A DNA stretch of 64,000 bases from Rhodococcus antarcticus (GTDB lineage Bacteria > Actinomycetota > Actinomycetes > Mycobacteriales > Mycobacteriaceae): positions 1 to 64,000 of the forward strand of contig NZ_CP110617.1 of assembly GCF_026153295.1 (NCBI RefSeq), given 5' to 3'. Below, in pieces: positions 4,006-27,007 of the stretch. A program made the position numbers and the translations under genes. Positions within the stretch are counted from its first letter, which is position 1; every line of letters begins with the position of its first letter. The notes beneath the pieces are model-generated. The model ran no database searches. It saw nothing but the letters and a program-made list of their open reading frames with translations, and was not told where the DNA came from.

Positions 4006-5256
4006 ATGCGGGGTGTGGTGGTGGCGGGTCGAGGTCGTCCAGGTCCGGAGCCGTTGTCAGGTCAGCGGGAGTGGTTCGCCGCCCTGGTCGCGGCGGGGGT
4101 CAGCAACAGCGAGGCGTGTCGGACTGTGGGGGTGAACCGTAAGACCGGGACCCGGTGGCGTTACGGGCGCAGCATCCCCGCCGCGGGTGGTGGGCTGCTG
4201 CACTATGCGCCGGTGCTGCGCCCCCGTGATGGTGTCATCAGCTCCCGCTACCTATCGGAGCAGGAGCGGGTGGTCATCGCCGACCTGCACCGGGGCGGGG
4301 TCAGTGGGCGGGTCATTGCCGCCGAGCTCGGGCGCAGCCCGTCGACGGTGAGCCGGGAGCTGGCCCGCAACACCGACCCCGGCCGCCGCTACGGCGCCGG
4401 GGTGGCCCAGGCCCGGGCGGTGCTCCGCCGGGGTCGACCGCGACCGCGGAGGGTGGAGAGGGATGTGGTGTTGCGGGTCTTCGTGCAGCAGTGCCTGGAC
4501 GTGCGGTGGTCCCCGGAGCAGGTCAGCCACGCCCTGAGTGTGGAGTTCGCCGACCAGCCGGCCCGGCAGCTGTGCACCGAGAGCCTCTACCAGGCCCTGT
4601 ACAGCCGAAACCCGTTCGTGCAGCGGACGTTGCGGTCGAGGCGGTGGCGGTCACGGCGCCGCCCGCACCGGCACCCCGACGCCCGCCGACCGGCTCGGCA
4701 CGCGACACCCCTGGTGATGATCGAGGACCGCCCGGCCTCGGTGAACGACCGGGTCGAGGTCGGCAACTGGGAGGGAGACTTGATCATGGGACCGGGCAAC
4801 CGGTCGGCGATCGGGACCCTCGTCGAGCGCTCCACCAGGGCGGTGGTGCTGGTGCACCTGCCCGATGGGCGGACCGCGGTCGCCGTCCGCGACGCCCTCG
4901 TCGAGGTCTTCGCCGCCATGCCGGCCGGGGTGCGCCGGTCGTTGACCTGGGACCAGGGCACCGAGCTCAGCGCCCACGCCGAGATCACCCGGATCTTGTC
5001 GCTGCCGGTGTTCTTCTGCCACCCGCACAGCCCCTGGGAGCGCGGCAGCAATGAGAACATGAATGGATTGCTCCGCGACTATTTCCCCAAGGGCACCGAC
5101 CTCGCTGTCCACCCCGCGCAGCGACTGCGCGCGGTGGCCGACGAGCTCAACAACCGACCCCGCAAGACCCTGAACTGGGCCACCCCCGCCGCTCTGCTCG
5201 CCGCCCACATCGCCGCGCTACCCTCGGCTTCGAAGTCCATCGTGGTGCGACGATGA
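4006..5256 (+). CDS. IS30-family transposase
   Basis: A 416-residue DDE transposase. The N-terminal half has two helix-turn-helix regions: around residues 30-50 (GVSNSEACRTVGVNRKTG) and around 85-120 (LSEQERVVIADL, then RSPSTVSRELARN). The catalytic core has D258 (NWEGDLIMG), D316 (TWDQGTEL) and E350 (SNENMNGLLRDYFPKGTDL), the IS30 signature. Length is slightly above the family norm of about 340-400. It is complete and lies inside matching inverted repeats, so it probably mobilises only this element. Confidence 0.93.
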   Translation: MRGVVVAGRGRPGPEPLSGQREWFAALVAAGVSNSEACRTVGVNRKTGTRWRYGRSIPAAGGGLLHYAPVLRPRDGVISSRYLSEQERVVIADLHRGGVSGRVIAAELGRSPSTVSRELARNTDPGRRYGAGVAQARAVLRRGRPRPRRVERDVVLRVFVQQCLDVRWSPEQVSHALSVEFADQPARQLCTESLYQALYSRNPFVQRTLRSRRWRSRRRPHRHPDARRPARHATPLVMIEDRPASVNDRVEVGNWEGDLIMGPGNRSAIGTLVERSTRAVVLVHLPDGRTAVAVRDALVEVFAAMPAGVRRSLTWDQGTELSAHAEITRILSLPVFFCHPHSPWERGSNENMNGLLRDYFPKGTDLAVHPAQRLRAVADELNNRPRKTLNWATPAALLAAHIAALPSASKSIVVRR

Positions 5257-5268: not shown

Positions 5269-5522
5269 TTCCCACACTGGGGCCACTTCGGGTTGACACA
5301 CTCAGGTTGAGCGCCGACTTGACCATCCGGTCGTAGCTCGCCAAGGGCGGCAGTCCCTTAGTCTGTCGACCAGAATTCCCTGTCACGGCTCAACTCCCCG
5401 GTTATTGTTTTCTCAGACGGTGACCCTCAGAGGCGGTTCAGTCAACTTCCCCGGGGGTTTGACACCCGCTCCGCAAGACCTTGCAACCCACTAATCACCA
5501 TTCTTGTAATTGGCGCTCAAGC

Positions 5523-5552
5523 TTGACGCTAGACGCCTCTGAATGGTAGGAT
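5523..5552 (+). promoter_or_regulatory. Strong sigma-70-like promoter
   Basis: TTGACG (5523-5528) and TAGGAT (5547-5552) are separated by 18 bases, close to housekeeping consensus. It lies 52 bases upstream of a small reading frame with a good ribosome site, in an AT-rich patch. Confidence 0.6.
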
Positions 5553-5603
5553 GAACCTGCGTTCGGAACGTCCGACGCGATCAAATAAGAGGAAGGAAAA
5601 AGG

Positions 5604-5687
5604 GTGCCAAGTAAGCGAAAACCATGGGATCTACTCTTGCGTTCAGTGTATTACGTAGCAATGATCTTCATTAACATTCTTGACTAA
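5604..5687 (+). CDS. 27-residue basic/hydrophobic peptide
   Basis: GTG at 5604 follows AGAGGAAGG (5588-5596) by 7 bases. The peptide begins with a basic tract (VPSKRKPWDLLL) and ends in a hydrophobic stretch (VYYVAMIFINILD), as in small membrane peptides. It lies between a consensus-like promoter (5523-5552) and a 15-bp hairpin (5723-5759), so the three parts form a free-standing transcription unit. The AT-rich composition differs from neighbours. No family is recognised. It could be a small membrane toxin, a regulatory leader peptide, or chance; the compact arrangement argues against chance. Confidence 0.5.
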   Translation: MPSKRKPWDLLLRSVYYVAMIFINILD

Positions 5688-5722
5688 AGTCAAATAATAT
5701 CGATCGAATTGCTGAAATCCTC

Positions 5723-5759
5723 AAGTAGCCTTCATGCCCGGTATGCATGAAGGCTACTT
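5723..5759. terminator. Perfect 15-bp hairpin, intrinsic terminator
   Basis: Arms at 5723-5737 and 5745-5759 pair perfectly around a 7-nt loop, followed by TTAGG. It ends the small-peptide unit on the plus strand and may also stop minus-strand transcripts from the DUF2188 side. Confidence 0.7.
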
Positions 5760-5830
5760 TAGGCTACGAATAGGCCACGTTCGGCGTGTCGTCTCAGGGG
5801 CAGGGCGAGATCATCTGTGCCTCGAGGGGT

Positions 5831-6073
5831 TCAGCCCCGGGTGGACCTCGGATCGTTGCCCGGCTTGACGGTGTCCTGCTTCCGGATCGTTCCGTTAAGC
5901 CCTCGAACCTGGAGCTCGCCCCCACCGTCGTTGCCCAATATCTCTCGAGCCCGATCGACACCCTCCGCCTGCGTGCCGACGACCGCGCTCGCCCGCGCAG
6001 CCCCCGGCTTCCGCACCTCGGTCCTGCCGTCGTCCCGCCGCTGCACGACCCGCTTGTTGGCCTTCTCGGTCAT
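5831..6073 (-). CDS. DUF2188 domain protein
   Basis: An 80-residue protein. The start is set at ATG 6073 because GAGGAGAAG precedes it; the frame stays open further upstream but without a ribosome site. The pattern KRVVQRRDDGRTEVRKPGA, then THAEGVDRAREI-like (here TQAEGVDRAREILGNDGGG) and LNGTIRKQDTV, is that of small DUF2188 proteins, in which two such segments form one compact fold. Function is unknown. It is monocistronic, just past a terminator hairpin. Confidence 0.75.
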   Translation of the reverse strand: MTEKANKRVVQRRDDGRTEVRKPGAARASAVVGTQAEGVDRAREILGNDGGGELQVRGLNGTIRKQDTVKPGNDPRSTRG

Positions 6074-6317
6074 GGTGTCTTCTCCTCGAGCTCCGCGGCC
6101 GCACACGGAGGCGAGCCGACGCGCTTGGGATACCACGGACCACCGACATTTCTGGGCTCTCGGTGGAACGCTGGAGCCCTCATCGGCACTCATACGCTCC
6201 AAATCAACTTGCTGGCACCTGCGCCAGACCGACCGTGATTCTGAACGGCCACGGTGCCTCGCTGCCACGGCTCCGACATCCCGGATCTAGGGCAGAGTCA
6301 GAGCGGTGCCCGAACGT

Positions 6318-6989
6318 TCATCGCCGGTCCGGGCCTGGTAGTGCCGCCGGCACGACTACCCGTCCACCGAGCTCGACCCGTAGTCCTTGCGGTACGGCGA
6401 TGCCATTCAGCCGTTGCCAGCACTCGTCGACCAGGTCGAACAGCCCCGTGATTCCGGGCGCGGCGACGGCACCTCGCCCTCGGGAGCCAGTCATGTCCCT
6501 GTCCGTCCAGATTCCACTCCGTCCTCGTCGCCGCTGGTTCAGCAGCGGGGCCCGCGACACCTGGACCAAATGTTCCAGCGCTTCGCCCACCACCTGGTCC
6601 CCCAGCTCGCGCAAGTGACGTCGATCAGCCGCCGGCAACACGTCGCAGAGTGAGGGCCACTGCACGACAATGATCCGGTCCCACACCTCGGGTGGCACGG
6701 TGTTGGCCAGGTGATGACTCTCGCCGATCGGTAGATCGCGGAGGCGACGCTGGGCTGTCTGCGTCTGACCCACATAGATCAGACCGGGCCCCTGGCACAC
6801 CACGCCGTACAGCGCCGGTCCTTCCACGGCAGCACCGTCGCCACCGTGCGGTGCCGTCAGAGCGTGTCCGAGGGCCGCAGCGAACATCAGCCTGCGGTCT
6901 TGCAGCGCGCGGACCTTCATCGGTTCGCTGATGAGCTCCCGGGTGGCGGCTACCCATCGCTCAAACCCGTCCAGGGCGTCGCTGCTCAT
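6318..6989 (-). CDS. GIY-YIG superfamily protein
   Basis: A 223-residue protein using ATG 6989. Residues 60-82 carry the GIY-YIG core: LYGVV, then GLIYVGQTQTAQRRL, with R82 as a possible catalytic arginine. The N-terminus (1-55) is helical; the C-terminal third has QRRRGRSG and a domain ending in VPAALPGPDRR. Such domains cut DNA in repair, homing and restriction enzymes. The gene is divergent from a DGQHR-domain gene, sharing a 200-bp control region with palindromes. The two GIY-YIG proteins in this window are not obvious copies of each other. A role in DNA defence is inference. Confidence 0.65.
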   Translation of the reverse strand: MSSDALDGFERWVAATRELISEPMKVRALQDRRLMFAAALGHALTAPHGGDGAAVEGPALYGVVCQGPGLIYVGQTQTAQRRLRDLPIGESHHLANTVPPEVWDRIIVVQWPSLCDVLPAADRRHLRELGDQVVGEALEHLVQVSRAPLLNQRRRGRSGIWTDRDMTGSRGRGAVAAPGITGLFDLVDECWQRLNGIAVPQGLRVELGGRVVVPAALPGPDRR

Positions 6990-7113
6990 GCCCAACGCTA
7001 GAACAGCCGATCGTTGCCCTCTCCGGACGGGACGGTGGCCACTGCGCGCCCCCGGACGCCTCCTACGCACGGATGTACAGCGGGCTGCATGCGACAACCA
7101 AGTCTGCAGGGGT

Positions 7114-7173
7114 TGCTACGTAGATTATTCGTGCGTAGCATCGTCTACAGGAGGCACACTCGGTGTCGCTACG
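7114..7173. promoter_or_regulatory. Inverted/direct GCTACG repeats in a divergent promoter
   Basis: TGCTACG (7114-7120) and CGTAGCA (7134-7140) form a perfect 7-bp dyad with a 13-nt spacer. A third GCTACG is at 7168-7173. They lie between divergent starts at 6989 and 7191, as an operator would. Confidence 0.4.
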
Positions 7174-7190
7174 CAGGGATTGGTCAGGTC

Positions 7191-8363
7191 ATGGCGGAGA
7201 AGATCAAGCGCCCCACCTTCGGGCGGATCGCGCGGCCGGGCATTGGTTACCACCAGGGATCGCGTCAGATGGTCACCACCGTGTTGTCACCGGTGCAGTT
7301 CGTGAACGCGATCGGTGAGCGGGAGGAGTGGGACCCGCTCTCGGGGACGGGTACCAACCGGAGGGAAGACAAGCAGCACCGGCGCGGCATCGCGGACTAC
7401 CTGGCCGCGAACGCCGACTACGTCCTGAACAGCATCCTGGTGTACCTCTCGCCGGACGAGGCCGAGTTCGTCGCCGACGAACCTGGCGCACCTGTCTCTC
7501 TGGGAACCCTCTACATCGACGCCGACGCCAAGATGGTCGTCGGCGACGGAGGCCACCGCTCGAGCGCCTACGGCGATGTCATCGACGCCCACCGCCCCCT
7601 CGCCGACGAGGTCTTCGCCCGCATGACAGCGAACGGGCAGCCGGTCATCGTGGTGTTGGACGACAACCAGGCCCGCCGCGTCCAGGACTTCACCGACCTC
7701 CAGAACAACGCGAAGCCGCTCAACCAGTCCGTGGCCCAGTCGATGGACCGCCGAGAGCTGGTCAACCGCATGCTGCTCGAGGCCGTGATCAAGGCAGGCG
7801 ACGTGCCGGTGTTCGACAACGGCAACAGGGTCGAGTTCCTCACCGACTCCCCGGGCAAGCTCTCCGCCAAGATCGCCAGCTACAAGACGCTGCGGTACGC
7901 CTCGGGCACCCTGCTCGTCGGCACCGGATACCGCTCGACCAAGGCGTGGGCGGAGGCCGTGGACCTCCTCGTCTCACGCGACGAGGAGGCCGCCGCCGAG
8001 AAGGTCATCGCCTTCTGGCAGGGCTACTCCGATCTCCCCCCGGTGGCCCAGGCGCTCTCCGTCGACCGCGGAGTGGCCATCCTGCGTGAGGACACCTGGC
8101 TGACCTCGGCGAACGTGATGTACGCCCTCGCCGCCGCCGTGCACAACGTGACGACCGGCGACGCCGCCATCACGACCCCCGAAGCGTTCGCCGCCCTTGG
8201 CTCCTTCGACTTCACCCGGACCGCGACGGGTCTGCACGGCACGCTGGTCGATCCGCCACTCACCGCCGGAGGTAACCCGAAGGCGAGGACCGGCCGGGAC
8301 GCCTGGGAGAGCGCCGCGGAGGTGTTCACCAACGTCATCGTGCAGTCGGCCACGACGACGTAG
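7191..8363 (+). CDS. DGQHR/DndB-like protein
   Basis: A 390-residue protein. ATG 7191 is the first start without an upstream in-frame alternative; GCAGGGA precedes it at 7173-7179. The hallmark loop is GDGGHRSSAYG at residues 118-128 (DGGHR instead of DGQHR). Flanking segments (RRGIADYLAANADYVLNSILV before, QPVIVVLDDNQARRVQDF and DLQNNAKPLNQS after) fit the DndB/DGQHR fold. DndB represses or limits phosphorothioation in Dnd systems, and related domains occur in other DNA-modification defence loci. No dndACDE genes are near, so this is a stand-alone use. It is followed after 125 bases by a GHKL ATPase gene and probably cotranscribed. Confidence 0.75.
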   Translation: MAEKIKRPTFGRIARPGIGYHQGSRQMVTTVLSPVQFVNAIGEREEWDPLSGTGTNRREDKQHRRGIADYLAANADYVLNSILVYLSPDEAEFVADEPGAPVSLGTLYIDADAKMVVGDGGHRSSAYGDVIDAHRPLADEVFARMTANGQPVIVVLDDNQARRVQDFTDLQNNAKPLNQSVAQSMDRRELVNRMLLEAVIKAGDVPVFDNGNRVEFLTDSPGKLSAKIASYKTLRYASGTLLVGTGYRSTKAWAEAVDLLVSRDEEAAAEKVIAFWQGYSDLPPVAQALSVDRGVAILREDTWLTSANVMYALAAAVHNVTTGDAAITTPEAFAALGSFDFTRTATGLHGTLVDPPLTAGGNPKARTGRDAWESAAEVFTNVIVQSATTT

Positions 8364-8488
8364 TCGGCCGCTACACCCCCGTTCGGCAGGCAACTTCCGG
8401 GAACACCACCAGAACGCTGCACCCCGCTGCTCGACTACTACCCAACCGCCCGACCCGACCCGCGCCTCTCCCCCGTCAGGAGTACTCC

Positions 8489-10858
8489 ATGACCCACCCC
8501 GCCGGCATCGTTCAGGCAGCGCTCGCTGCGAAGACCGCGACCGATGCCACCAACGTTCAGAAGATGCTCGCCGAGTCCTTCGGCGCCACCCACAAGCGCC
8601 CCCTCGGGGACAAGTGGAACAACCACGGGCTGATGAGCACCTCGGGCAGCTTCGATCTCAAGCTGATCGAGAACGTCACGAACATGCAGGACGCCGTCAT
8701 CGAGCGCCACGCGCTCCTCAAGCACGGCACCGTCGCCGCCGTCCCCTACCCCTCCCCGCAGGCCGCCGCCGCCGACCTGTTCCCGTTCCAGACGGCGGCG
8801 GAGCGCGCCCGCATGGTGACCGTCACCTTCGAGGAGTCCGACAAGCCCACCGGCACGACCAAGCGGCTGACGCCCGTCTTCCGGGACCAGGGCTGCGGGC
8901 TGCGCCCCGAGTCCGTGCCCACCACCATCTTCGGCCTCGGTGGGTCCCAGAAGGACGGGGCCCTGTACCAGCAGGGCGCCTTCGGGCTCGGTGGGGCGAT
9001 GACCTTCCGCAACGCCAGGGCCGTCGTCCTGGTCTCCCGTCGCGACCCGCAGCTGCTGACGGCCGGCGAGCAGGACCTCATCACCGTGGCCGTCGTCCAG
9101 TGGCAGGACAACGTCAAGGGGCGCACCGCCTACTACCTCGTCGACCAGAAGTGGAACACCGCAGGGGACCCGGGCAAGCCGTGGTCCTGCCCGGCTACCG
9201 AAGTCCCCGACTTCGAGCCGGGCACCCACCTCGCCCTGGTGTCCTACCGCGTCGACGGATTCCACCGGGTCCGGGAGGGCGATGAGCGCACCTTCGACAC
9301 CGTCACCAACACCCGCCTGTTCCGGCCGGTGCTGCCCGTCCGCTTCACCAACATGATCGCGCGCGGCGAGACGCGCTCCACCAACCTCGTCGGGCTCGAG
9401 TATCGGCTGGACAACGCCAAGCAGACCTTCGACGAGGGCGAGGACGCCCTCCCGTTCTCCTTCGAGGGCACCACCTACACCCTGCCCGTCCGCTACGTGC
9501 TCTTCGCCAAGAAGCCCGGCGATCCCGGTGGCCGCCGCAGCTACGTCGCCCACAACCACGCCGTCCTGTTCCTCTCCAACGGCCAGACGCACCACCACTG
9601 GACGCCCCAGCAGTTCAAGCTCAAGACCAAGCTCAACAAGCTCCACGACCGGATCCTCGTGGTGGTCGACACCGATCAGCTCCCCATCCGCGTCCGCACC
9701 GGGCTGTTCACCGCCGACCGCAGCGAACTGGTCCGCGGCGACGCCGCTCTGCGCCTCGAGGAGGACCTGCGTGCGTTCCTCAACGACTGGGATGCCCTCA
9801 AGGAGGAGAACAACGCCGCCATCCGCGAGGCCCTCACCGGCACGGGTTCCGAGCCCACCCTCGAGGCTGCCCGCAAGATCAGCCGCGCCATGAACATCCC
9901 CGGCTTCGGCTCATCCGGAGACGGTGGTAGCGGCGGTGGCGGAACGAAGACCGGGGGCACCGGTAGCGGCGGCGGCGGCGGCAAGCCCACCAAGCCGGTC
10001 GACCTCAAGAACGACCCCACCACCATCACCGGACCCAGCACCGTCCAGGCCGTCATCGGGCGCACCAGGTCGATCACCTACACCGTCGACGTCGTGGACG
10101 AGTTCTTCAACGGCCGCGGCCAGCTCACCGTCGACAGCGACCACCCGAACATCAAAGGCGGCCACGACATCACCGTGGGCAAGGGCAACAAGGGTCGTGT
10201 CCGGGTCAGCGTTGCCGTCTCCGACGCCCTCGAGCCCGGCACCTACGAGCTCCGGGTGAGCCTCGCGGACTGGATGAAGTCCAGTGGTGGCGTCGGGCCC
10301 ACCCTCGAGCACACGACCAAGATCGAGCTCGTCGAGGAGATCCCCGGACAGGGCAACGGCAGCGGAAAGCCCACCCCCGGAACCGGCACGGCCGGAGGTC
10401 CCTCCCAGGGCACCAGCGTGGCCCTGGTGTGGAAGGGAATGAATGACGAGACCACCTGGTCGCGCACCACGGTCGGGGAGATCGTCGACACCCCCGCCCA
10501 CGTGCTCGCGGAGGCCAACCCCGACTACGCGGAACTGGCCGTGCTGGGCGACCAGAACATCCCCACGGTGGTGCTGAACACCGACTTCACTCCGCTCAAG
10601 CAGTACCTCGCCGGGCGCAACAAGCAGCTCGATTCCCTGGCCAACCCCAGGGAGCGCTACTCCGTCGGTGTGGGCGTTGGTCTCCTCCTGCTCAAGACGA
10701 GCGCGGACCAGCAGGCCGCCACCGATCCCATCAGCGACCGAGCGTTGGCCGCCGCGCAGAACGCCATTGCCAAGGGCGTCCTCGCCGTCATGCCGGCGTT
10801 CGACGACCTCAGCAAGGCCGCAGGCCTCGACGACACCGAGGACGACACCAACGAGTAG
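8489..10858 (+). CDS. GHKL (HSP90-like) ATPase with Gly-rich linker and C-terminal domains
   Basis: A 789-residue protein; AGGAG at 8479-8483 supports ATG 8489. The ATP site is clear: N-box E61-N65-D68-A69 (IENVTNMQDAV), G1 box D133-x-G135-x-G137 (RDQGCGLRPE) and G2 box GAFGLGGA (163-170). After the ATPase and a transducer-like region comes a Gly/Ser/Thr-rich linker (about 476-505). A beta-rich Ig-like domain follows (about 515-615), then a second linker and a C-terminal helical domain. The C-terminus is acidic (DDTEDDTNE). GHKL proteins of this style occur in several defence loci as sensors or clamps. The partner is presumably the DGQHR protein upstream; the function is unknown. Confidence 0.7.
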   Translation: MTHPAGIVQAALAAKTATDATNVQKMLAESFGATHKRPLGDKWNNHGLMSTSGSFDLKLIENVTNMQDAVIERHALLKHGTVAAVPYPSPQAAAADLFPFQTAAERARMVTVTFEESDKPTGTTKRLTPVFRDQGCGLRPESVPTTIFGLGGSQKDGALYQQGAFGLGGAMTFRNARAVVLVSRRDPQLLTAGEQDLITVAVVQWQDNVKGRTAYYLVDQKWNTAGDPGKPWSCPATEVPDFEPGTHLALVSYRVDGFHRVREGDERTFDTVTNTRLFRPVLPVRFTNMIARGETRSTNLVGLEYRLDNAKQTFDEGEDALPFSFEGTTYTLPVRYVLFAKKPGDPGGRRSYVAHNHAVLFLSNGQTHHHWTPQQFKLKTKLNKLHDRILVVVDTDQLPIRVRTGLFTADRSELVRGDAALRLEEDLRAFLNDWDALKEENNAAIREALTGTGSEPTLEAARKISRAMNIPGFGSSGDGGSGGGGTKTGGTGSGGGGGKPTKPVDLKNDPTTITGPSTVQAVIGRTRSITYTVDVVDEFFNGRGQLTVDSDHPNIKGGHDITVGKGNKGRVRVSVAVSDALEPGTYELRVSLADWMKSSGGVGPTLEHTTKIELVEEIPGQGNGSGKPTPGTGTAGGPSQGTSVALVWKGMNDETTWSRTTVGEIVDTPAHVLAEANPDYAELAVLGDQNIPTVVLNTDFTPLKQYLAGRNKQLDSLANPRERYSVGVGVGLLLLKTSADQQAATDPISDRALAAAQNAIAKGVLAVMPAFDDLSKAAGLDDTEDDTNE

Positions 10859-10975
10859 ATCAACATCAGGCGCTCCGGAGATCCAGATGCCTAGTCAGCG
10901 CCAGGATCTTCCACATTCGCATTATTCAGAAGCTCTAACCAAAACTACTAAACTCTCGAGAACGGTAACCCAAAG

Positions 10976-11374
10976 ATGCCCGAAAAGCCAGCCGTAATGG
11001 CGGACCTACCACCAGCGTTGCGGAGCGCGTTTGATGCTCTGAAAGAAGGTCTGGCAATCGGTAGCGAATACACGCTTGATCTGACTTCGATCGACAGTCT
11101 TTCGGAGAAGAATCTGTCTAATCCGCACGACGTAGCAGCTATCGCCATGCGCAAGCTTCAACTTCTCGCAGCCGTCTGCGGACCAGGCGTTACCACGACC
11201 AACGACATCGTGGTGTCTCTGTGTACAGAGCTATACCGCGCCCTGGGGCAGTTACAGCACTCGCTGGAAGGAGACCATGTCGACCTGATCAGGATCTGCA
11301 GAACAGAGATCAGGGACTGCGGCTTGGGAGTAGCGCGAATGCTACCGCCAGGAGAAATTGGCGAACTGGAGTAG
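10976..11374 (+). CDS. Small helical protein of unknown function
   Basis: A 132-residue protein starting at ATG 10976. It reads as mostly alpha-helical (LRSAFDALKEGLAIGSEYTL, then AAIAMRKLQLLAAVCGPGV and ELYRALGQLQHSL). No family is recognised. Composition is clearly less GC-rich than the upstream ATPase gene, which it follows by 117 bases on the same strand. It could be the last gene of the DGQHR/GHKL unit or an independent acquisition. Confidence 0.5.
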   Translation: MPEKPAVMADLPPALRSAFDALKEGLAIGSEYTLDLTSIDSLSEKNLSNPHDVAAIAMRKLQLLAAVCGPGVTTTNDIVVSLCTELYRALGQLQHSLEGDHVDLIRICRTEIRDCGLGVARMLPPGEIGELE

Positions 11375-11473
11375 ACAGCAGCACACCTACCAAAGGTAGC
11401 GCTTTACCATACGCGCTACGCGGCGTAAAAAGAGATACCACCAGTCCGAAACAAAATCTCTAACGCATGACCT

Positions 11474-11812
11474 CTATGCGGGACATAGCCAATCCCTCAC
11501 AGGGCGTGCGCCATTCTCGACCGAATCCAACGTTCGCAGCGGAGGACGCAACTCGCGACCTGTCATATACCAAACGTGGTTACCGTCGTGACCAGGCAAT
11601 GAAGTCGTCGTGCCAACAAACAGGTCGTCGTGAAGCGCCTGTTCCTGCCAAATCATCGTAAGGCGAGCAAAGTCGGCATCTTCGGGCTCACCGAACTCAA
11701 CTCGATCGGCAAGCTTCTCGAAGGTTCGGGCAGCGGCAGCGCCACGCACGCCAAGGAGAACCGAGGCTAGGACCGCAACCACATGGTTGGTCCGCTGCTG
11801 CTTGATGCTCAT
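11474..11812 (-). CDS. Unknown 112-residue protein, downstream of an RHH-like gene
   Basis: ATG 11812 gives a 112-residue product with a short hydrophobic stretch near the N-terminus (VVAVLASVLLGVRGAAAA) and a polar remainder (ADFARLTMIWQEQALHDD). The stop of the upstream RHH-like gene is 10 bases away, so the two form an operon. Family not recognised. The arrangement is like a toxin-antitoxin or regulator-effector pair, which is inference. Confidence 0.5.
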   Translation of the reverse strand: MSIKQQRTNHVVAVLASVLLGVRGAAAARTFEKLADRVEFGEPEDADFARLTMIWQEQALHDDLFVGTTTSLPGHDGNHVWYMTGRELRPPLRTLDSVENGARPVRDWLCPA

Positions 11813-11822
11813 CTCACGCCCT

Positions 11823-12152
11823 TCAGAGCCCGGTGCGTGCCTGTGCAGACACCGAGGGGTCTTGATCGTGCCCGTTCGCCCCGGGCGGAGCAAGAGGCAC
11901 GTCGGACATGAGCGAGTTCATCTGCCGGCTGATCGACTGCTCCCGCGCTTCGGCGGTGGCGCGGTTGTCGCGGACGATCGTGTCTGGACCCACTTCGCGT
12001 ACGTACTCGCGGATGTAGTCCTGGATCGCCCTGGCGACAAGCTTCGAGACCGTCAGCCCCTGGTGCTCGGCTACAGCTTCGAGGAGTACACGGTCAGCTT
12101 CACTGGCGAGCCGCGCCGTAACGGGTGCTGGTGCCTTGTAGGCCACGACCAT
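11823..12152 (-). CDS. Ribbon-helix-helix-like DNA-binding protein
   Basis: A 109-residue protein with ATG 12152; AGAGG lies 7 bases upstream. The N-terminal part (APVTARLASEADRVLLEAV, then TVSKLVARAIQDYIREYV) has the beta-strand plus two helices seen in CopG/Arc antitoxins and plasmid regulators. The C-terminus is unstructured. It is the first gene of a two-gene minus-strand unit, and a dyad plus TGTATACA lie in its upstream region (12230-12274), consistent with autoregulation. Confidence 0.55.
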   Translation of the reverse strand: MVVAYKAPAPVTARLASEADRVLLEAVAEHQGLTVSKLVARAIQDYIREYVREVGPDTIVRDNRATAEAREQSISRQMNSLMSDVPLAPPGANGHDQDPSVSAQARTGL

Positions 12153-12229
12153 CTCCAAACCTCTGGACACTGATCCCAAAGACGGTACGCCGAACGATGC
12201 GCGAAGCAAACCTTCTGATGATGTGCGTC

Positions 12230-12274
12230 GTGCTGCTAGGAGCGATGGTGCAAGCAGCACATTTTGTGTATACA
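12230..12274. promoter_or_regulatory. Dyad and palindrome between divergent genes
   Basis: GTGCTGCT (12230-12237) pairs perfectly with AGCAGCAC (12253-12260), and the 8-base palindrome TGTATACA lies at 12267-12274. The region separates the RHH-like gene (start 12152) and the secreted repeat protein (start 12321). Confidence 0.4.
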
Positions 12275-12425
12275 TCGAGTGTGATGCTGCTCGGCATCCA
12301 CGGCGCAGTCAGGAGATGGCATGTCCGCTCACTTCGTCCGGCGAGGCTCCGCCCAGATCAGAGCCTCCCTCGCGGTCACCGCGATGTTCTCGATGGTCGT
12401 CCAGGTGCCGGCGCAGGCCGCGACC

Positions 12426-13171
12426 ACGACGTCCACGTCCACGACGGCGGTCGCCATCGTGGCGCCGCCCGACAAGCCCGCCGGCAGCGACGGCTGGGCG
12501 CAGCTGGGCTCCGGCAGCAAGGTCTGGATCGACGCCGCCTGCCGCACCTCCCTCGTCGCCGCCGGCGTGCCCCTCAAGACGCTGGACTGGTCGGTCATCT
12601 CCACCTACCCCGACGTCGCCGCCATCGGCTGCTCCGCCCTCACCCCCACCCCCGCGCAGGCGCCCGCGCAGCCCACGCCCACGACGTCCACGTCCACGAC
12701 GGCGGTCGCCATCGTGGCGCCGCCCGACAAGCCCGCCGGCAGCGACGGCTGGGCGCAGCTGGGCTCCGGCAGCAAGGTCTGGATCGACGCCGCCTGCCGC
12801 ACCTCCCTCGTCGCCGCCGGCGTGCCCCTCAAGACGCTGGACTGGTCGGTCATCTCCACCTACCCCGACGTCGCCGCCATCGGCTGCTCCGCCCTCACCC
12901 CCCACCCCCGCGCAGGCGCCCGCGCAGCCCACGCCCACGACGTCCACGTCCACGACGGCGGTCGCCATCGTGGCGCCGCCCGACAAGCCCGCCGGCAGCG
13001 ACGGCTGGGCGCAGCTGGGCTCCGGCAGCAAGGTCTGGATCGACGCCGCCTGCCGCACCTCCCTCGTCGCCGCCGGCGTGCCCCTCAAGACGCTGGACTG
13101 GTCGGTCATCTCCACCTACCCCGACGTCGCCGCCATCGGCTGCTCCGCCCTCACCCCCACCCCCGCGCAGG
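12426..13171 (+). repeat. Three tandem 255-bp repeats
   Basis: Copies begin at 12426, 12681 and 12937. They look identical at the DNA level apart from one extra C at the end of copy 2, which makes its spacing 256 rather than 255. Near identity implies recent duplication or ongoing gene conversion. Confidence 0.85.
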
Positions 13172-13938
13172 CCGCGGCCAACGCGGCCAACGCGATCGCG
13201 AAGATCCCCGCCGTCGGCGGCACGTCCTCGTCGATGACCTCCGTGAGCAGCGGGGGCTCCACCACCACCTCCGAGGCCGGCACCACCACCGTCGTCCCCG
13301 ACAACAGCTCCAAGCCGGTGCAGATCACGACCCCGGACGGTGGCACCGCCTCGCTCACGCTGCCGACCGCGTCCGTCCCCTCGATCGTCATGAAGGGCAC
13401 GAGCTACTTCCCCTCGGGCGCCAAGACCACGGCGGTCCAGCCCGTGGCCCAGGCCTCCGGAGGCGGGGCGCGGACCATGATCACCCTCACCGACCCCAGC
13501 GTGCCGAACACGGTGGACGTCCGCATCGACGTCCCGACGGGGTCGTCGCTGGTCCTGCAGGAGGACGGCTCCGTCGCGGTGAAGGCCGCGGACGGCTCCT
13601 CCACCGCCGGTCTCGCCCCTCCGTGGGCCGTGGACGGGGGAGGCAACAAGCTGACGACCTTCTACGACGTCAACGGAAACACCGTCACCCAGGTCATCGA
13701 CACGCTGGCCGCGACGTCGTGGCCCGTCGTGGCCGACCCCTGGTACAAGCCCTGGCAGTGGCAGGTCGTGAAGGCCGCCGCGAACTGGTGGAGCAACCAC
13801 CCGTTCGTCCAGGGCTGCCAGAAGGGGATCACGGCGGTGTGGAACGCCGTGCCGCCCACGCCGACCTACCGACTCCCGTCCGCGGCCGTCATGTGCCTGG
13901 CCTTCGGCACCGTCTACTGGGCCGCCTACCCCCCCAAC

Positions 13939-14090
13939 GCGGCCCCGGCCCCGGTGAGCAACCCGGCGCCCGCCCCGGCCCCGGCCCCCGCCCCGGCCCC
14001 GGCCCCCGCCCCGGCCCCGGCCCCCGCCCCGGCCCCGGCCCCGGCCCCGGTGAGCAACCCGGCCCCCGCCCCCAGCCCCGCCCCGGCGGG
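13939..14090 (+). repeat. Pro-Ala low-complexity tract
   Basis: Repeated codons GCC CCG / GCC CCC encode an alternating Ala-Pro stalk, interrupted twice by VSNPAPAP. Such stalks space domains through cell walls. Confidence 0.8.
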
Positions 14091-14391
14091 TGCGTCGATC
14101 TCCGCGTCGAAGGGCGCCTACTACGGCAGCGGCTCCTACTGGATCAACGTCCGCGTGAACAACTTCCCGACGGGGACCTACCGCTACCAGTGCATCGACA
14201 GCACGGGCGCGTTCTACACGAACACGGTGACGGTGACCAGCCCGAACCAGAGCACGTGGAACGGCAACTTCTGCCGCAACTACGCCCCCTACGTGACGCG
14301 GGTGGTGATCAACGGCATCAGCTCCAACCCCGTGAGCATGTAGCCCAGCCACGCTTCACTCCGTGCGGCACGTAGTTGGGTGATGACTGGG

Positions 14392-14421
14392 AAGGCCCCG
14401 ACCTCCAGAGGTCGGGGCCTT
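14392..14421. terminator. Intrinsic terminator, 14-bp perfect stem
   Basis: Arms 14392-14405 and 14408-14421 pair perfectly around a 2-base loop. It ends the repeat-protein gene and lies in a convergent junction with the restriction gene. Confidence 0.75.
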
Positions 14422-14552
14422 CTCCGTGCCTGTCCCCGCCGACAACGTCGTCTCACGTCCGCTTGTCGTCAAAACCCTGCTCGCTGTCCCGCGGTCGGCC
14501 GGTTCTGGTGGTGCGTGCCCTCACCTGGAACCCCTGTGCCGACAGGTCCGGC

Positions 14553-15431
14553 TCACACAGCAAGATCGAGGGGCAGGTCGGCGATGTCCTTGAGGCGTCG
14601 TCCGTCGATCATCATCTGGAGCAGGTCGGTGGTCTCTTCGGTGCCGACCTGGTGGGCGGCGTCGAGGAGCTCGGGGAGGGCGAAGTGGTAGACGCAGTCG
14701 AGGTCGCCGGTGCCCAGGGCGAGCGAGCTGATGCGCACGGGGGTGGGTTCGCCGGTGACGACGACGACGTGGGGTAGGCGTCCCTTGCGGTTGCGGATGA
14801 GGTTGAGGGCTTCGCTGCGGGCGTTCTGGGCGCGGTCGCTGCGCAGGGTCCACTTGCAGGAGATGACGGCGTGCAGGATCGGGTGCGGCTGCACCGCCGC
14901 GCGCAGCGTGGCGTGGGTGGCGACGGAGTCGTCGACGAACACCTCGTGGGTGTTGATCTCGGCGTCGCTGACGGGGGCGCGGGAGACGACGACGTCGGGG
15001 GCGATGGCGTAGGCGTTGCCGAGGACGGCCTGCAAGGACGGGTTGGCGGTGACGGCGGCGTCGAGCTCGACGAGGTGGGCGTACTGCTCGAACTGCGCGA
15101 CCCCGGAGGTCTTACCCCGGGTGGTCAGCTTCGCCACCGACCAGGCCCCGGGACGCAGGTGACCCAGGCGGGGGAAGGTGGCCTGCAGGAAGTTGGTGCA
15201 GGCCTGCTCGAACCCACCCCCGGCGGTCTGCCCGGCCAGGCGCTCGCCCTCGGTCTCGACCTTGAGGGCGGTGGCGACGTGACCGGCGAGGGCCTTGCTG
15301 AGCTTGCTGCTGCTGTCGGCGTTACTCGCCACACCCTGGGTGACCGACAGGATGCCATCGGCCAGCAGGGAGGCGTGGAACACCGAACGCTGCTCGGCGA
15401 GGAACGCCTCCACCGCTGGCTGGTCGGTCAT
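14553..15431 (-). CDS. NgoMIV-family type II restriction endonuclease
   Basis: A 292-residue protein; ATG 15431 is two bases after the stop of the methyltransferase gene. The C-terminal half carries the family core (AVISCKWTLRSDRAQNARSE, then GRLPHVVVVTGEPTPVRIS and GDLDCVYHFALPELLDA). In NgoMIV this region holds the catalytic acidic and lysine residues. NgoMIV itself cuts GCCGGC; that this enzyme does so is inference. The gene sits downstream of its methyltransferase in one operon, so host DNA would be methylated first. Confidence 0.88.
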   Translation of the reverse strand: MTDQPAVEAFLAEQRSVFHASLLADGILSVTQGVASNADSSSKLSKALAGHVATALKVETEGERLAGQTAGGGFEQACTNFLQATFPRLGHLRPGAWSVAKLTTRGKTSGVAQFEQYAHLVELDAAVTANPSLQAVLGNAYAIAPDVVVSRAPVSDAEINTHEVFVDDSVATHATLRAAVQPHPILHAVISCKWTLRSDRAQNARSEALNLIRNRKGRLPHVVVVTGEPTPVRISSLALGTGDLDCVYHFALPELLDAAHQVGTEETTDLLQMMIDGRRLKDIADLPLDLAV

Positions 15432-15433
15432 GT

Positions 15434-16561
15434 TCAGGCGACGTCCGGGACCGCGACGAGGTGCCGCTCCGTCGCGGCGGCGACGTAGGGCTTGAGGTGG
15501 TCGGCGATGGCCCGGGCGAGGCCGACGGGGACGGCGTTGCCGATCTGCTTGGCGATACCGATCTTGGTGCCGCACCACCGGAAGTCGTCACCGAAGCCCT
15601 GGATGCGGGCGGCCTCGAGGTGGGTGATGGGCCGATTGGTGCGGGCGGTGGGGTCGTGCTCGTCCCACTGGGGGTGGAGGTACTGGCCCTTCTCGGGCTT
15701 GAAGAACTCGGTGCGGATGGTCAGGGAGGGCTGGTCCCAACGCATCCGGCCCATGACGTCGGTGGTGCCGGTGGGCTTGTTACGCCAGCAGTCGGGCAGC
15801 AGTTCGTCCGGCAGGTCGAAACGGCCACCGCCGGGGGGGATGCAGTCGTAGCGCAGCAGCGACTTCGGGGTGGGGGTACGCCCGAGGTGCAGGTCCTCAC
15901 CGGTGAACGGTCCGGGCATGTTCGTACCGTCGAAGGCCCACGTGCGGGCCGGGAGGGCGGTGTCGCGGGTGGCCATGGGGATCCCGGCGAGGGCGTCGCG
16001 GACGGTGTTCCACGGGAGCAGGCCGCCGGCGCCGCCGCGGGCGTGGGTGGGGGTGGGCAACGGGATGGCCCCGATGCGGGAGCCGATGACGATGGTGCGG
16101 TTGCGGCGCTGGGAGACCCCGAAGTCAGCGGCGTTCAGCACCCCGTAGTTCAGGGAGTAGCCCTTGAGGTCGCCGTCGGCGACGCTGCCCTGCAGAGCGG
16201 CGAACTCGGTGCTGGAGAGGAACCGGTCGACGTTCTCGATGACGAAGACCTTGGGCTTCGCGTGGGTCACCACCCGCAGGTACTGCTGCCACAGCTTGTT
16301 GCGGGGGTCGTTGACGTCGCGGCTACCGAGGTTGGAGAACCCCTGGCACGGGGGCCCGCCGATGACGAGGTCGGCGGTGGGGATGTCGGCGTTGTCCAGG
16401 GCGGTGATGTCCCCGGCGAAGGTGTGGTCGGCCCCGTAGTTCGCGGCGTAGGTGGCGGCAGCCTGCTGGTCCCACTCCACCGACAGCACCGGCTCGTAGC
16501 CGGCGTCGACGAACCCGGCGGTCATGCCCCCGCACCCAGCGAACAGGTCGATGATCTTCAT
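15434..16561 (-). CDS. DNA (cytosine-5) methyltransferase
   Basis: A 375-residue enzyme. The start is set at ATG 16561 because GGGAG is 5 bases upstream; another ATG 15 bases earlier is possible. Motifs: I DLFAGCGGMTAGF (residues 5-17), IV GPPCQGFSN with the catalytic Cys, VI ENVDRF, VIII QRRNR, and X GNAVPV near the end. The target-recognition region lies around residues 190-290. It methylates cytosine to protect host DNA from the adjacent NgoMIV-type enzyme, and is divergent from a vsr gene that repairs its deamination products. A dyad upstream may give autoregulation. Confidence 0.93.
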   Translation of the reverse strand: MKIIDLFAGCGGMTAGFVDAGYEPVLSVEWDQQAAATYAANYGADHTFAGDITALDNADIPTADLVIGGPPCQGFSNLGSRDVNDPRNKLWQQYLRVVTHAKPKVFVIENVDRFLSSTEFAALQGSVADGDLKGYSLNYGVLNAADFGVSQRRNRTIVIGSRIGAIPLPTPTHARGGAGGLLPWNTVRDALAGIPMATRDTALPARTWAFDGTNMPGPFTGEDLHLGRTPTPKSLLRYDCIPPGGGRFDLPDELLPDCWRNKPTGTTDVMGRMRWDQPSLTIRTEFFKPEKGQYLHPQWDEHDPTARTNRPITHLEAARIQGFGDDFRWCGTKIGIAKQIGNAVPVGLARAIADHLKPYVAAATERHLVAVPDVA

Positions 16562-16578
16562 CCGCGCTCCCAGCACCT

Positions 16579-16601
16579 ACACCACCGAATGACAGTGGTG
16601 T
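16579..16601. promoter_or_regulatory. 7-bp perfect dyad upstream of the methyltransferase
   Basis: ACACCAC (16579-16585) and GTGGTGT (16595-16601) with a 9-nt spacer lie 18 bases upstream of the methyltransferase ATG, where a repressor of the restriction-modification operon could bind. Confidence 0.35.
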
Positions 16602-16707
16602 GACTCTAGCCGCGCGGCACCGGCGACCGGGCACCACAGGGTCGCACCCATGACCCGTGCGACCCCGAGGTGCCCACCAGGGCGGCACCGGCGATTCTGG
16701 GTGCGTT

Positions 16708-17181
16708 ATGACCACACACCCGGATGCCGACGACACCGCCCCCGGGCCGTCAGCCGGCTACCGGCCAGTCCCCTCCTCGGTGGCGGCTCGGGCACGGTTC
16801 CGCGCCCAGCGGCGGCGGGACACCGCCCCCGAGCTCGCGCTGCGGCGGCTGCTCCACGCCCGGGGGCTGCGGTACCGGGTCGACACCGCCCCCCTGCCGG
16901 GGGTCCGCCGCCGGGCCGACGTGGTGTTCACCCGGGTGCAGCTGGCGGTGTTTGTCGACGGCTGCTTCTGGCACTCCTGCCCCGTCCACGGCACCAGCCC
17001 GAAGGCCAACGGACCGTGGTGGCGGGACAAGCTCGAAGCCAACGTGCGCCGGGACCGCGACACCGATACTCGGCTGGCCGAGGCAGGGTGGGCGGTGGTT
17101 CGGGTGTGGGAACACGAACCCCCCGCCGAGGCCGCCGACCGCGTCGCCCGGGCCTACGCAGCCCGCACCACCGGTCACTAA
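16708..17181 (+). CDS. vsr: Very short patch repair (Vsr) endonuclease
   Basis: A 157-residue protein; ATG 16708 is chosen because earlier in-frame starts precede the family domain by a long unlike tail. The Vsr core is present: RRDTAPELALRRLLHARGLR, then RRRADVVFTRVQLAVFVDGC with the catalytic Asp region, FWHSCPVHG (zinc/His site) and KLEANVRRDRDTDTRLAEAG. Vsr nicks T:G mismatches produced when methylcytosine deaminates. It is divergent from the cytosine methyltransferase and belongs to the same restriction-modification cluster. Confidence 0.9.
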   Translation: MTTHPDADDTAPGPSAGYRPVPSSVAARARFRAQRRRDTAPELALRRLLHARGLRYRVDTAPLPGVRRRADVVFTRVQLAVFVDGCFWHSCPVHGTSPKANGPWWRDKLEANVRRDRDTDTRLAEAGWAVVRVWEHEPPAEAADRVARAYAARTTGH

Positions 17182-18814: not shown

Positions 18815-20008
18815 TCAATGGTCTGAGGCGGTCTCCGCTCGCCGTTCGGCCTCGTCGCGGTGATCTTCGAGGAGCTCGCCGCGTGGCCGCGTGGCCTCCT
18901 CGATCCTCAGCGGTTTCCCGTGGACCTCCGCCATGAGCTCGGCGTAGCCGTGCAGCTCCGGGGCGAGGTGCACCGTCCAGGTGGTTGTGTCGATCGTCAG
19001 CAGGAAGGCATCGAAGAGCCGGTGGATGTCGGCCCGGAGCAGGAGTCCCCCGTCGAGGTGGTGCACCGGGGTGTCGGCGAACCGATACAGGTGGGCTGCG
19101 TCGAGCACGGTCACCGGCTGCGGACCGGTGACCGCGCAGCAGGCACCGAACCGCTCGAGCAACGCGGCCTTGAAGCTCTGCTGACCGACCCGGCGCACAC
19201 CCACCGACGGCACGAGCCCCCCGTCGGGTGCCACGGCGATCCGTCCACTCCCCTCGTCGCCGTCCGACCGAAGATCGGCCAGCCCGTCCACCGACGTGTG
19301 ATCGCTGAGCAGTGCGACAGCGGCCGACCAGTCCAGGCGCCGCACCGCGTTCTGACGGTCACCCCCGGTAAAGACCCCCTCGAGCAGGCGCCGCGGCAGC
19401 GGCGTCGGCAGCTCGGTCCAGGTCGGGGCGTAGATCGCCTCGAACACCGCGAGCTCGCGCTCGACGTACTCGGGGTCGTCGAACTGGCTGCCGCAGTCCG
19501 GGCAGCGGTACGTCGGGGACATCGTGGTCCGCCGGTCCGGGCCCGACCGTTTGCACTGCGGGCACAACGTCATCGTCTTGCTGCCCAGCTCGGTCACGAC
19601 CTCATCAACGAAGGCGTGGCCGTAAATGCTGACCTCGTCACGGATGACGACGAGATCCCCGACCGACACCGCCTTGTGGTTGGGCACCGTCGCGTCGTAG
19701 CTGTACTTCACGCCGAGCACGTCGCGGTACCGAACGGCCGGGTCCAACTCATCCACACGCGAGAAGCAACTCCACGCAGAAGGCTGCGGACGAGCAGAGG
19801 TGGTCGCGGACGACACGTCAGCAGCGTGATCCCGCGCCGGCGCGGACACGCCTTTCCTGCTGGGGAACTCGGCCCTCACGACCGCCACCTGCTCCGGCGT
19901 GAGAACCCACCGGGTGTAGGGAACCGGCGGCGGCCAGGTCCGCCGAAGCCAATTCCGCAGCACGAGCTGGGTCACTCCCAGCTCCAGCGCAAGCTCCCGC
20001 GGCGTCAT
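18815..20008 (-). CDS. HNH endonuclease with N-terminal HTH and zinc ribbon
   Basis: A 397-residue protein from ATG 20008. Residues 1-50 form a helix-turn-helix (PRELALELGVTQLVLRNWLR). A zinc ribbon follows (CPQCKRSG, then YRCPDCGSQF). The C-terminal part has an HNH_2-type nuclease (ACCAVTGPQPVTVLDAAHLY, then GLLLRADIHRLFDA). Similar HNH proteins act as modification-dependent or plain restriction nucleases; that function is inferred. It is the last member of the cluster of DNA-cutting enzymes at 0-20 kb. Confidence 0.75.
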   Translation of the reverse strand: MTPRELALELGVTQLVLRNWLRRTWPPPVPYTRWVLTPEQVAVVRAEFPSRKGVSAPARDHAADVSSATTSARPQPSAWSCFSRVDELDPAVRYRDVLGVKYSYDATVPNHKAVSVGDLVVIRDEVSIYGHAFVDEVVTELGSKTMTLCPQCKRSGPDRRTTMSPTYRCPDCGSQFDDPEYVERELAVFEAIYAPTWTELPTPLPRRLLEGVFTGGDRQNAVRRLDWSAAVALLSDHTSVDGLADLRSDGDEGSGRIAVAPDGGLVPSVGVRRVGQQSFKAALLERFGACCAVTGPQPVTVLDAAHLYRFADTPVHHLDGGLLLRADIHRLFDAFLLTIDTTTWTVHLAPELHGYAELMAEVHGKPLRIEEATRPRGELLEDHRDEAERRAETASDH

Positions 20009-20265
20009 CAACTCATCTTCCTAAACGACTGCCGGGGGGGCCAGTAAGCGCGCGGCAGGCCCGCCTTGGCCACCTAACCACTTCTCATGTTTCATAACCG
20101 TCGACGTGCCTTAAACGAAGGGTTTTGCACCGTGTCTGCCATCGCTGGCGGGGCACCCCGCTCCTTCGGTGCCCGTGTCTGGGGGCGAGGACGGTCCGCG
20201 TAACGCGCGCCCCAATAAGGAGCGATCCGTTGGTGGATGTCGATGAGGGGCTTCGCGGGAGGCGA

Positions 20266-25383: not shown

Positions 25384-26004
25384 TCAGGACTGCAGGCGCT
25401 CCTCAACGATCAGGTACCGGCGTAGGGCTGCTTCCACCAGGGCGCTACGGCTGCCGGCGCCCCACTGCCCCGCCAACGCGTCAAGCTGTTCGACGTCGGA
25501 ACGAAGAACGCCAGCAAGAGGAACGCGCGCTGGTGCCTGGGAATGACGCCGCCGTGTCGATATGGGGCTGGATGAACTGAAGAGCCCCCCGTGTGGTGCC
25601 GGGGTACCCGCGGGACCGGTCCAGTGCTGTGCCAGATCGTCTGCGTGGGCCTCAATGGCGTCGAGTGCGACCCGCCCGTACGTCCGCGCAGTAGCCGGGT
25701 TGGTTCCCCTTTCCTGCAGGGTCAGTGCACGCAGAGCTGCGTACACCTCGGGGGCGAGGGTGACCTCCGGGGGGGCGACTCGTGATGGTGCAGCGAGGCT
25801 GGCTGCGCGTTGCGAACGCGCGGTCGCAGCGGCGGTTGGCCGGGCCTGTTCGGGGGTAGTCGACGGTGCGTTAACCCGAGTGTTGTCCACCGAGGCGGCC
25901 GCATCAGGCGCGGGACGAGTGGGCGCAGGGAGCGGCGGTAGCAACTCGTCGATGTCGTCGAGAGCCGTGGGGTCGAACGCCGCGCGCCTGCGGGCGGTGC
26001 TCAT
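25384..26004 (-). CDS. ParA partner protein (putative ParB/RHH-type)
   Basis: A 206-residue protein. Its ATG (26004-26002) overlaps the parA stop (ATGA), so the two are coupled. The N-terminal half is disordered and acidic (DPTALDDIDELLPPLPAP). The C-terminal third has a helical DNA-binding pattern (VPLAGVLRSDVEQLDALAGQ, then SALVEAALRRYLIVEERL) like ribbon-helix-helix proteins. Order and coupling suggest the centromere-binding partner of ParA; sequence alone does not prove it. Confidence 0.6.
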   Translation of the reverse strand: MSTARRRAAFDPTALDDIDELLPPLPAPTRPAPDAAASVDNTRVNAPSTTPEQARPTAAATARSQRAASLAAPSRVAPPEVTLAPEVYAALRALTLQERGTNPATARTYGRVALDAIEAHADDLAQHWTGPAGTPAPHGGLFSSSSPISTRRRHSQAPARVPLAGVLRSDVEQLDALAGQWGAGSRSALVEAALRRYLIVEERLQS

Positions 26005-26924: not shown

Positions 26925-27007
26925 GCCGTCGCACAGTACGTACCACCGTCCGTGCCGCGTGCCTTCGACACGCACCTGCATACGACCTTTTGGACGGTAT
27001 TTCATCC

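Follow-up and report, generated by a model that had tools for sequence, protein, structure and literature searches.

The first 64,000 nucleotides of contig NZ_CP110617.1 of Rhodococcus antarcticus (hereafter the window), which start at base 1 of this non-chromosomal contig of 99.6 kb, carry a set of four neighbouring genes encoding a GIY-YIG nuclease-like protein, a DGQHR-domain protein, a predicted GHKL-S5 ATPase and a small protein. A preliminary description of this DNA had proposed that these genes form one new defence module. The comparison of the set with a few hundred actinobacterial genomes, plasmids, phages and viral contigs suggests overall that they are exchangeable parts gathered around DNA modification and not a fixed operon; the locus gives the impression of known anti-invader machinery in a loosely combined version, not of a clearly new fixed system. 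Judged by analogy, the reading that we tentatively prefer, with somewhat less than even confidence, is a plasmid-borne anti-invader locus in which a DGQHR sensor, a GIY-YIG cutter and a GHKL clamp would act on foreign or wrongly modified DNA. This reading builds on a GIY-YIG/DGQHR gene pair that recurs at other loci and on a family of ATPases whose genes frequently neighbour DNA-modification genes. All four open reading frames (ORFs) were found where the preliminary description had placed them:

6318..6989, minus strand: GIY-YIG nuclease-like protein, 223 amino acids, ATG start (motif order, weak PF01541 match)
7191..8363, plus strand: DGQHR-domain protein (PF14072, ParB/sulfiredoxin-type), 390 amino acids, ATG start (PF14072, TIGR03187)
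8489..10858, plus strand: predicted GHKL-S5 ATPase, paraMORC-like, 789 amino acids (N-box, G1 and G2 motifs; model of residues 1-470)
10976..11374, plus strand: small ORF, 132 amino acids, starting 117 bp past the ATPase gene (ORF call)

A recurring GIY-YIG/DGQHR gene pair

A GIY-YIG gene lies directly before a DGQHR gene in eight other loci (L101, L102, L103, L054, L055, L110, L111 and L094, the last holding a piece of the GIY-YIG gene). In the six loci for which a gap was computed (L094, L101, L102, L103, L110 and L111), the two genes share 1-4 bases at their ends, and they are adjacent in the two actinobacterial loci, L054 and L055. The GIY-YIG reading within the pair is based on motif and arrangement, with a best Pfam E value of 0.05 (GIY_YIG_2). 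In a tree built without L110 and L111, six GIY-YIG-linked DGQHR proteins form one fully supported clade. The pair stands directly behind sspABCD-type genes in three loci (L101, L054 and L055) and upstream of dndBCDE in L103. Five of these loci are described below:

L054, actinobacterial genome: GIY-YIG (1610-2221) then DGQHR (319-1581), with a 3'-phosphoadenosine 5'-phosphosulfate (PAPS) reductase gene by profile
L055, actinobacterial genome: GIY-YIG (9309-9917) then DGQHR (about 8143-9306), with SspB, SspC and SspD by PADLOC models
L101, Roseobacter litoralis plasmid: GIY-YIG then DGQHR (7474-9254), with DUF4007 and PAPS reductase genes annotated
L110, viral contig: pair at 5441-7122, no Ssp or ATPase gene beside it, a PAPS-reductase-like phage gene near (by reading)
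L111, viral contig: pair at 5375-7122, no Ssp or ATPase gene beside it, a PAPS-reductase-like phage gene near (by reading)

About 84% of 2,678 sspBCD operons occur without SspE or SspFGH, and other restriction partners have been asked about (Wang et al. 2021, PMC8092258). The GIY-YIG/DGQHR pair is possibly an SspE-like sensor-plus-nuclease pair serving as the restriction partner of some of these orphan Ssp operons, and its position behind sspABCD in one alphaproteobacterium and two actinobacteria makes it a concrete, testable candidate for the missing partner. A wider proposal, which we regard as rather unlikely, is that the pair represents an undescribed two-gene modification-sensing restriction cassette that partners many orphan SspABCD operons; in the window and on one viral contig, this cassette would have lost its dependence on phosphorothioation and combined with a paraMORC-like ATPase into a stand-alone system. 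In the open-licence literature, the only related statement that we found was a general comment placing URI (GIY-YIG) nucleases at the margins of Dnd loci (PMC10853773), and an earlier description of the pair elsewhere is possible.

Profiles and motifs revealed no GHKL gene in the neighbourhood of the DGQHR genes examined (12 actinobacterial ones and several from plasmids), except in the Roseobacter locus L101. There, an MzaB-like GHKL gene (10185-12023; HATPase_c_3 E=3e-20), different from the ATPase family of the window, stands with a PLD-type nuclease and a DEAD helicase (9247-13671) and faces the Ssp-GIY-YIG-DGQHR operon. In addition, three DGQHR-family genes lie within about 22 kb in one actinobacterial genome (G181 contig 1, 149-172 kb; L056 and L057).

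Proteins of the window and the ATPase family

The DGQHR protein of the window matched PF14072 (E=3.1e-29; 102.6 bits, cut-off 29.1) and TIGR03187 (63.9 bits, above the cut-off of 58.85). Its pentapeptide is DGGHR at residues 119-123, exactly as had been reported, with D, H and R kept and Q replaced, and FTDLQ stands at residue 167 where FxxxN is expected, with N replaced. The earlier label "DndB-like" did not hold, since TIGR03233 scored 39.6 bits against a cut-off of 328 and the genome contains no PF01507 match; DpdB was also rejected (NF041060, 16 bits against 300). Judged by these profile scores, the protein is a member of the DGQHR family and neither DndB nor DpdB. It is encoded by the only PF14072 gene of the genome. 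The search of this genome for PF01507, the PAPS-reductase family of SspD and DndC, returned no match, while the search control was positive in 14 of 14 genomes. Lacking a PAPS-reductase-family gene, the genome therefore has no recognisable phosphorothioation enzyme, and phosphorothioation in trans was ruled out. The earlier statement that no dnd, dpd, ssp or BREX genes accompany the set thus held genome-wide for dnd, dpd and ssp and within the window for BREX, but a C5 methylase with Vsr and an NgoMIV-type enzyme do lie about 4 kb downstream.

The ATPase itself had no match in the Pfam, NCBIfam, PADLOC and PHROGs models (PADLOC also has no model for the GIY-YIG or small protein of the window) and none in phage records, and a sequence search of the PDB returned nothing credible. 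The intact N-box, G1 and G2 motifs described earlier for this 789-residue protein were borne out by a twelve-member alignment of bacterial and haloarchaeal sequences, in which E61, N65 and D68 (N-box), D133, G135 and G137 (G1) and G163 and G168 (G2) are invariant. HATPase_c_3 was matched by seven of the twelve family members, and a weak DpdH match (PADLOC) was obtained for one family member only. An AlphaFold model of residues 1-470, made with eight sequences, reached a predicted local distance difference test (pLDDT) score of 77.7 and a predicted template modelling (pTM) score of 0.79. With this model, Foldseek returned Hsp90 (E=5e-11) and MORC2 (E=2.4e-10), and structural matches over about 300 residues gave Z scores of 20.9 for Hsp90, 19.5 for MORC3, 17.1 for topoisomerase VI-B and 15.9 for GyrB. 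The matches to these four proteins show, at the level of the model, that the ATPase carries GHKL and S5 domains. An N-terminal ATPase module (about 1-450) is followed by a Gly-rich linker (about 473-500) and a C-terminal part. The MORC signature of the S5 domain (GhXhhpXXRhl) is absent from the window ATPase and from all relatives scanned, which rules out the MORC family proper.

The 19 loci of the ATPase family comprise the window, a Mycobacteriaceae metagenome-assembled genome (MAG; 65% identity), three more genomes of the phylum, plasmids of Ensifer, Devosia, Hymenobacter, Pontibacillus and three haloarchaea, and seven viral contigs; the MAG member (L005) was the only close relative in the contig scan. 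DNA-modification genes were present in the retrieved flanks of 11 of the 19, a raw count: Ssp-type genes in L013, L014 and L028; a C5 methylase in L031 and L032 (haloarchaeal plasmids) and, with Vsr, in the viral contig L098; N6/N4 or D12 methylases in L015, L094, L096 and L099; and the C5 methylase and Vsr of the window. L016 carries AbiEi/AbiEii, and no modification genes were found in the flanks read of L005, L017, L027, L029, L030, L095 and L097, several of which are short or cut. As a pattern, these neighbourhoods agree with those published for MORC/paraMORC genes, which are known to neighbour C5 methylases and Vsr (Iyer 2008, PMC2292703). The GHKL+S5 fold, the length with a C-terminal extension and the proximity of modification genes all correspond to the paraMORC group, and paraMORC-like, at group level, is the safest name for the ATPase. 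Separately, in L013 (3228-7633) and L028 (11542-16044), a GHKL histidine-kinase-like gene and a large partner stand beside the ATPase gene, like the HEF_HK / Response_reg_2 pair of PMC8011034; for the L013 pair, Pfam gave HATPase domains only, and the named partner domains were not found.

The GIY-YIG protein of the window carries LYGVV(60), IYVGQT(71), RRLR(81), E(136) and LLNQ(149) in the order of the GIY-YIG family. Its profile match is weak (PF01541 E=0.1, below cut-off), and one unannotated relative was found on a Streptomyces plasmid (40% over 96 amino acids). The small ORF, previously counted as a member of the system, is probably not part of the set because of its composition and context: it showed no tie to the other genes, its third-position GC content is 0.61 versus 0.92-0.93 in the two preceding genes, and its single weak relative (E 5e-5) is solitary on a Rhodococcus plasmid. 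No small ORF lies beside the nearest ATPase relative (L005), and the protein has no similarity to the 102-amino-acid ORF of L094.

Possible cooperation of the parts and alternative explanations

In the anti-invader reading, we infer a role in defence in which the ATPase would work with the other two proteins. Most likely, the DGQHR protein, with its ParB/sulfiredoxin-type NTPase fold, would read the modification state of DNA and switch on the binding or hydrolysis of nucleotides, by analogy with SspE (DGQQR) and with DndI, a phosphorothioate (PT)-stimulated ATPase. The arginine of the DGQQR motif of SspE is essential for GTP hydrolysis and nuclease activity, and the DGQQR NTPase licenses the SspE nuclease (PMC13251355). 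The GIY-YIG protein may be the nicking or cutting part licensed by the DGQHR protein, and the GHKL-S5 ATPase would dimerise on ATP and clamp or remodel DNA so that the nuclease complex could engage or move, as proposed for MORC/paraMORC and by analogy with topoisomerases and the GHKL-Shedu protein VcSduA. Because phosphorothioation enzymes are lacking, the locus may work on its own in a modification-dependent, type IV-like manner, or may use the C5 methylation of the plasmid as a self mark. The window adds a version of the pair from a genome lacking any recognisable gene for phosphorothioation, beside an ATPase family that is unmodelled as a defence protein in the protein-family libraries searched. 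If the parts cooperate, DGQHR sensors would be linked to MORC-like clamps.

A comparable arrangement was found on the viral contig L094, where a GIY-YIG remnant, a DGQHR gene (PF14072 E=9e-33), a 102-amino-acid ORF and an ATPase gene of the window family (748 bits) lie nearly overlapping on one strand. Roughly estimated, the probability that a DGQHR gene falls by chance within 4 kb of one of 17 other ATPase loci is 0.001, or 0.12 under a 100-fold island enrichment.

Several observations weigh against joint action. The GIY-YIG ORF of L094 is without its first half, and L094 and the window are the only two cases of a DGQHR gene beside this ATPase family. The preliminary description had suggested scoring co-occurrence across actinobacterial genomes, and the outcome did not favour one system: among 396 such genomes, 4 have a member of the ATPase family, 13 have PF14072 and only the window's own has both, although, once that genome is excluded, an expectation of no overlap in 91% of cases leaves the comparison with little power. 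No PF14072 match was found in eleven other ATPase-bearing genomes or plasmids. The nearest relative, L005 (a contig of 3.4 kb from a genome 91% complete), has a transposase remnant upstream, an unrelated gene downstream and no DGQHR or small gene. In the window, the GIY-YIG gene is adjacent to the DGQHR gene but divergent from it, as had been noted (6318-6989 minus versus 7191-8363 plus), and 125 bp separate the DGQHR and ATPase genes. The DGQHR protein deviates in its motifs (DGGHR for DGQHR, FxxLQ for FxxxN) and, on a long branch, is placed apart from the clade formed by the GIY-YIG-linked DGQHR proteins; a joint clade with them was not rejected (approximately unbiased test, p-AU 0.11). A fixed four-gene system is thus not supported, there being no co-occurrence among the 396 genomes outside the window's own and no PF14072 in those eleven other ATPase records. 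What remains of the one-module claim is defence-type genes on a mobile replicon, the recurring pair and the gene order of L094.

The main rival explanation, a quite possible one, is that the paraMORC-like ATPase, DGQHR and GIY-YIG genes are unrelated defence-island neighbours that arrived separately and act independently. The 396-genome result, the solitary nearest relative, the divergent GIY-YIG gene and, behind the 125-bp gap, the ATPase gene's own ribosome-binding site (AGGAG close upstream of its ATG) all favour this explanation, as does the mixed content of the region, which also holds an IS30 element, a PDC-S14-type GIY-YIG/RAMA gene, an NgoMIV system and an HNH gene. It accounts less well for the same part types in the same order in L094, for the tight GIY-YIG/DGQHR pairing at other loci and for the chance estimate given above.

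The set is flanked by an IS30 transposase gene (4006-5256) and a gene for a secreted repeat protein. A plasmid-type ParA-like protein (26001-27005) and, in L019, a relaxase-like protein (13190-14782) were recognised by sequence reading only. About 4 kb downstream of the set lie complete-looking NgoMIV-type restriction-modification genes with Vsr, possibly a functional partner:

within 14553..17181, minus strand: NgoMIV-type restriction enzyme (PF09015 E=1e-113)
15434-16576, minus strand: C5 cytosine methylase (PF00145 E=1e-64)
16657-17181, plus strand: Vsr endonuclease (PF03852 E=1e-17)

Three further features were observed in the window. Positions 1-1692 encode a GIY-YIG plus RAMA protein matching the PADLOC candidate PDC-S14 (E=3e-49), which is the first gene on the contig and whose start is possibly cut. 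Positions 12223-14375 have a signal-peptide-like start and near-identical tandem copies, between which the best frame shifts, so that copy number or frame may vary. Positions 18818-20011 encode an HNH_2 endonuclease-like protein (E=1e-10) with a MerR-like N-terminal stretch and a zinc ribbon.

That the ATPase is the paraMORC of the C5 methylase/Vsr/NgoMIV system 4 kb away, with the DGQHR gene incidental, is improbable: NgoMIV-type systems are not known to require an ATPase, the secreted repeat protein and other ORFs intervene, and other ATPase relatives pair with Ssp genes or adenine/N4 methylases. In its favour are the relatives beside a C5 methylase on two haloarchaeal plasmids and beside a C5 methylase and Vsr in L098, together with the known proximity of MORC/paraMORC genes to C5 methylases and Vsr (PMC2292703). 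Slightly less probable still is that the DGQHR protein, instead of sensing modification, acts in regulation as a DndB-like repressor or depletes nucleotides as an effector, with the ATPase as its target or partner: DndB is reported to exert negative regulation in an ATP-dependent manner, and NTPases and nucleases are among the members of the ParB superfamily (PMC10853773), but the window's genome offers no dnd operon to regulate, and the tight partner in relatives is a nuclease-type protein, a better fit to sensing and cutting.

Comparison with known systems

DndB (TIGR03233) belongs to the DGQHR-domain superfamily, but the window protein differs from it in score (39.6 against 328), in its DGGHR motif and in coming from a genome without a DndC/SspD-type gene. 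The type IV systems GmrSD, GrwAB and TgvAB have a DUF262/DGQQR domain related to DGQHR (PMC4619093) and are triggered by modified DNA; unlike the window set, they use other nuclease parts (HNH/DUF1524 in GmrSD), with no GIY-YIG protein and no GHKL ATPase. VcSduA, a GHKL-Shedu protein of the paraMORC3 type, also contains a GHKL ATPase, and its restriction of phage depends on the ATPase site (PMC12137116), but it has its own DUF4263 nuclease, and none was found by Pfam in the window ATPase, of which the structural model covers residues 1-470. The MORC/paraMORC proteins of restriction-modification loci (PMC2292703) share with the window ATPase the N-terminal GHKL+S5 domains, the intact motifs, the long C-terminal extension and neighbours such as C5 methylases, Vsr and other methylases, whereas the window ATPase lacks the MORC signature and has no helicase partner at its locus. 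With regard to SspABCD-SspE and IscS-DndBCDE-DndI, SspE is one fused protein, whereas here two proteins, one of them the GIY-YIG partner, would share the task in a genome without phosphorothioation genes. On the other side, both systems couple a ParB-fold DGQQR-type NTPase (SspE) or a PT-stimulated ATPase (DndI) to a nuclease, much as we propose for the window, and relatives of the window's gene pair stand right behind sspABCD itself.

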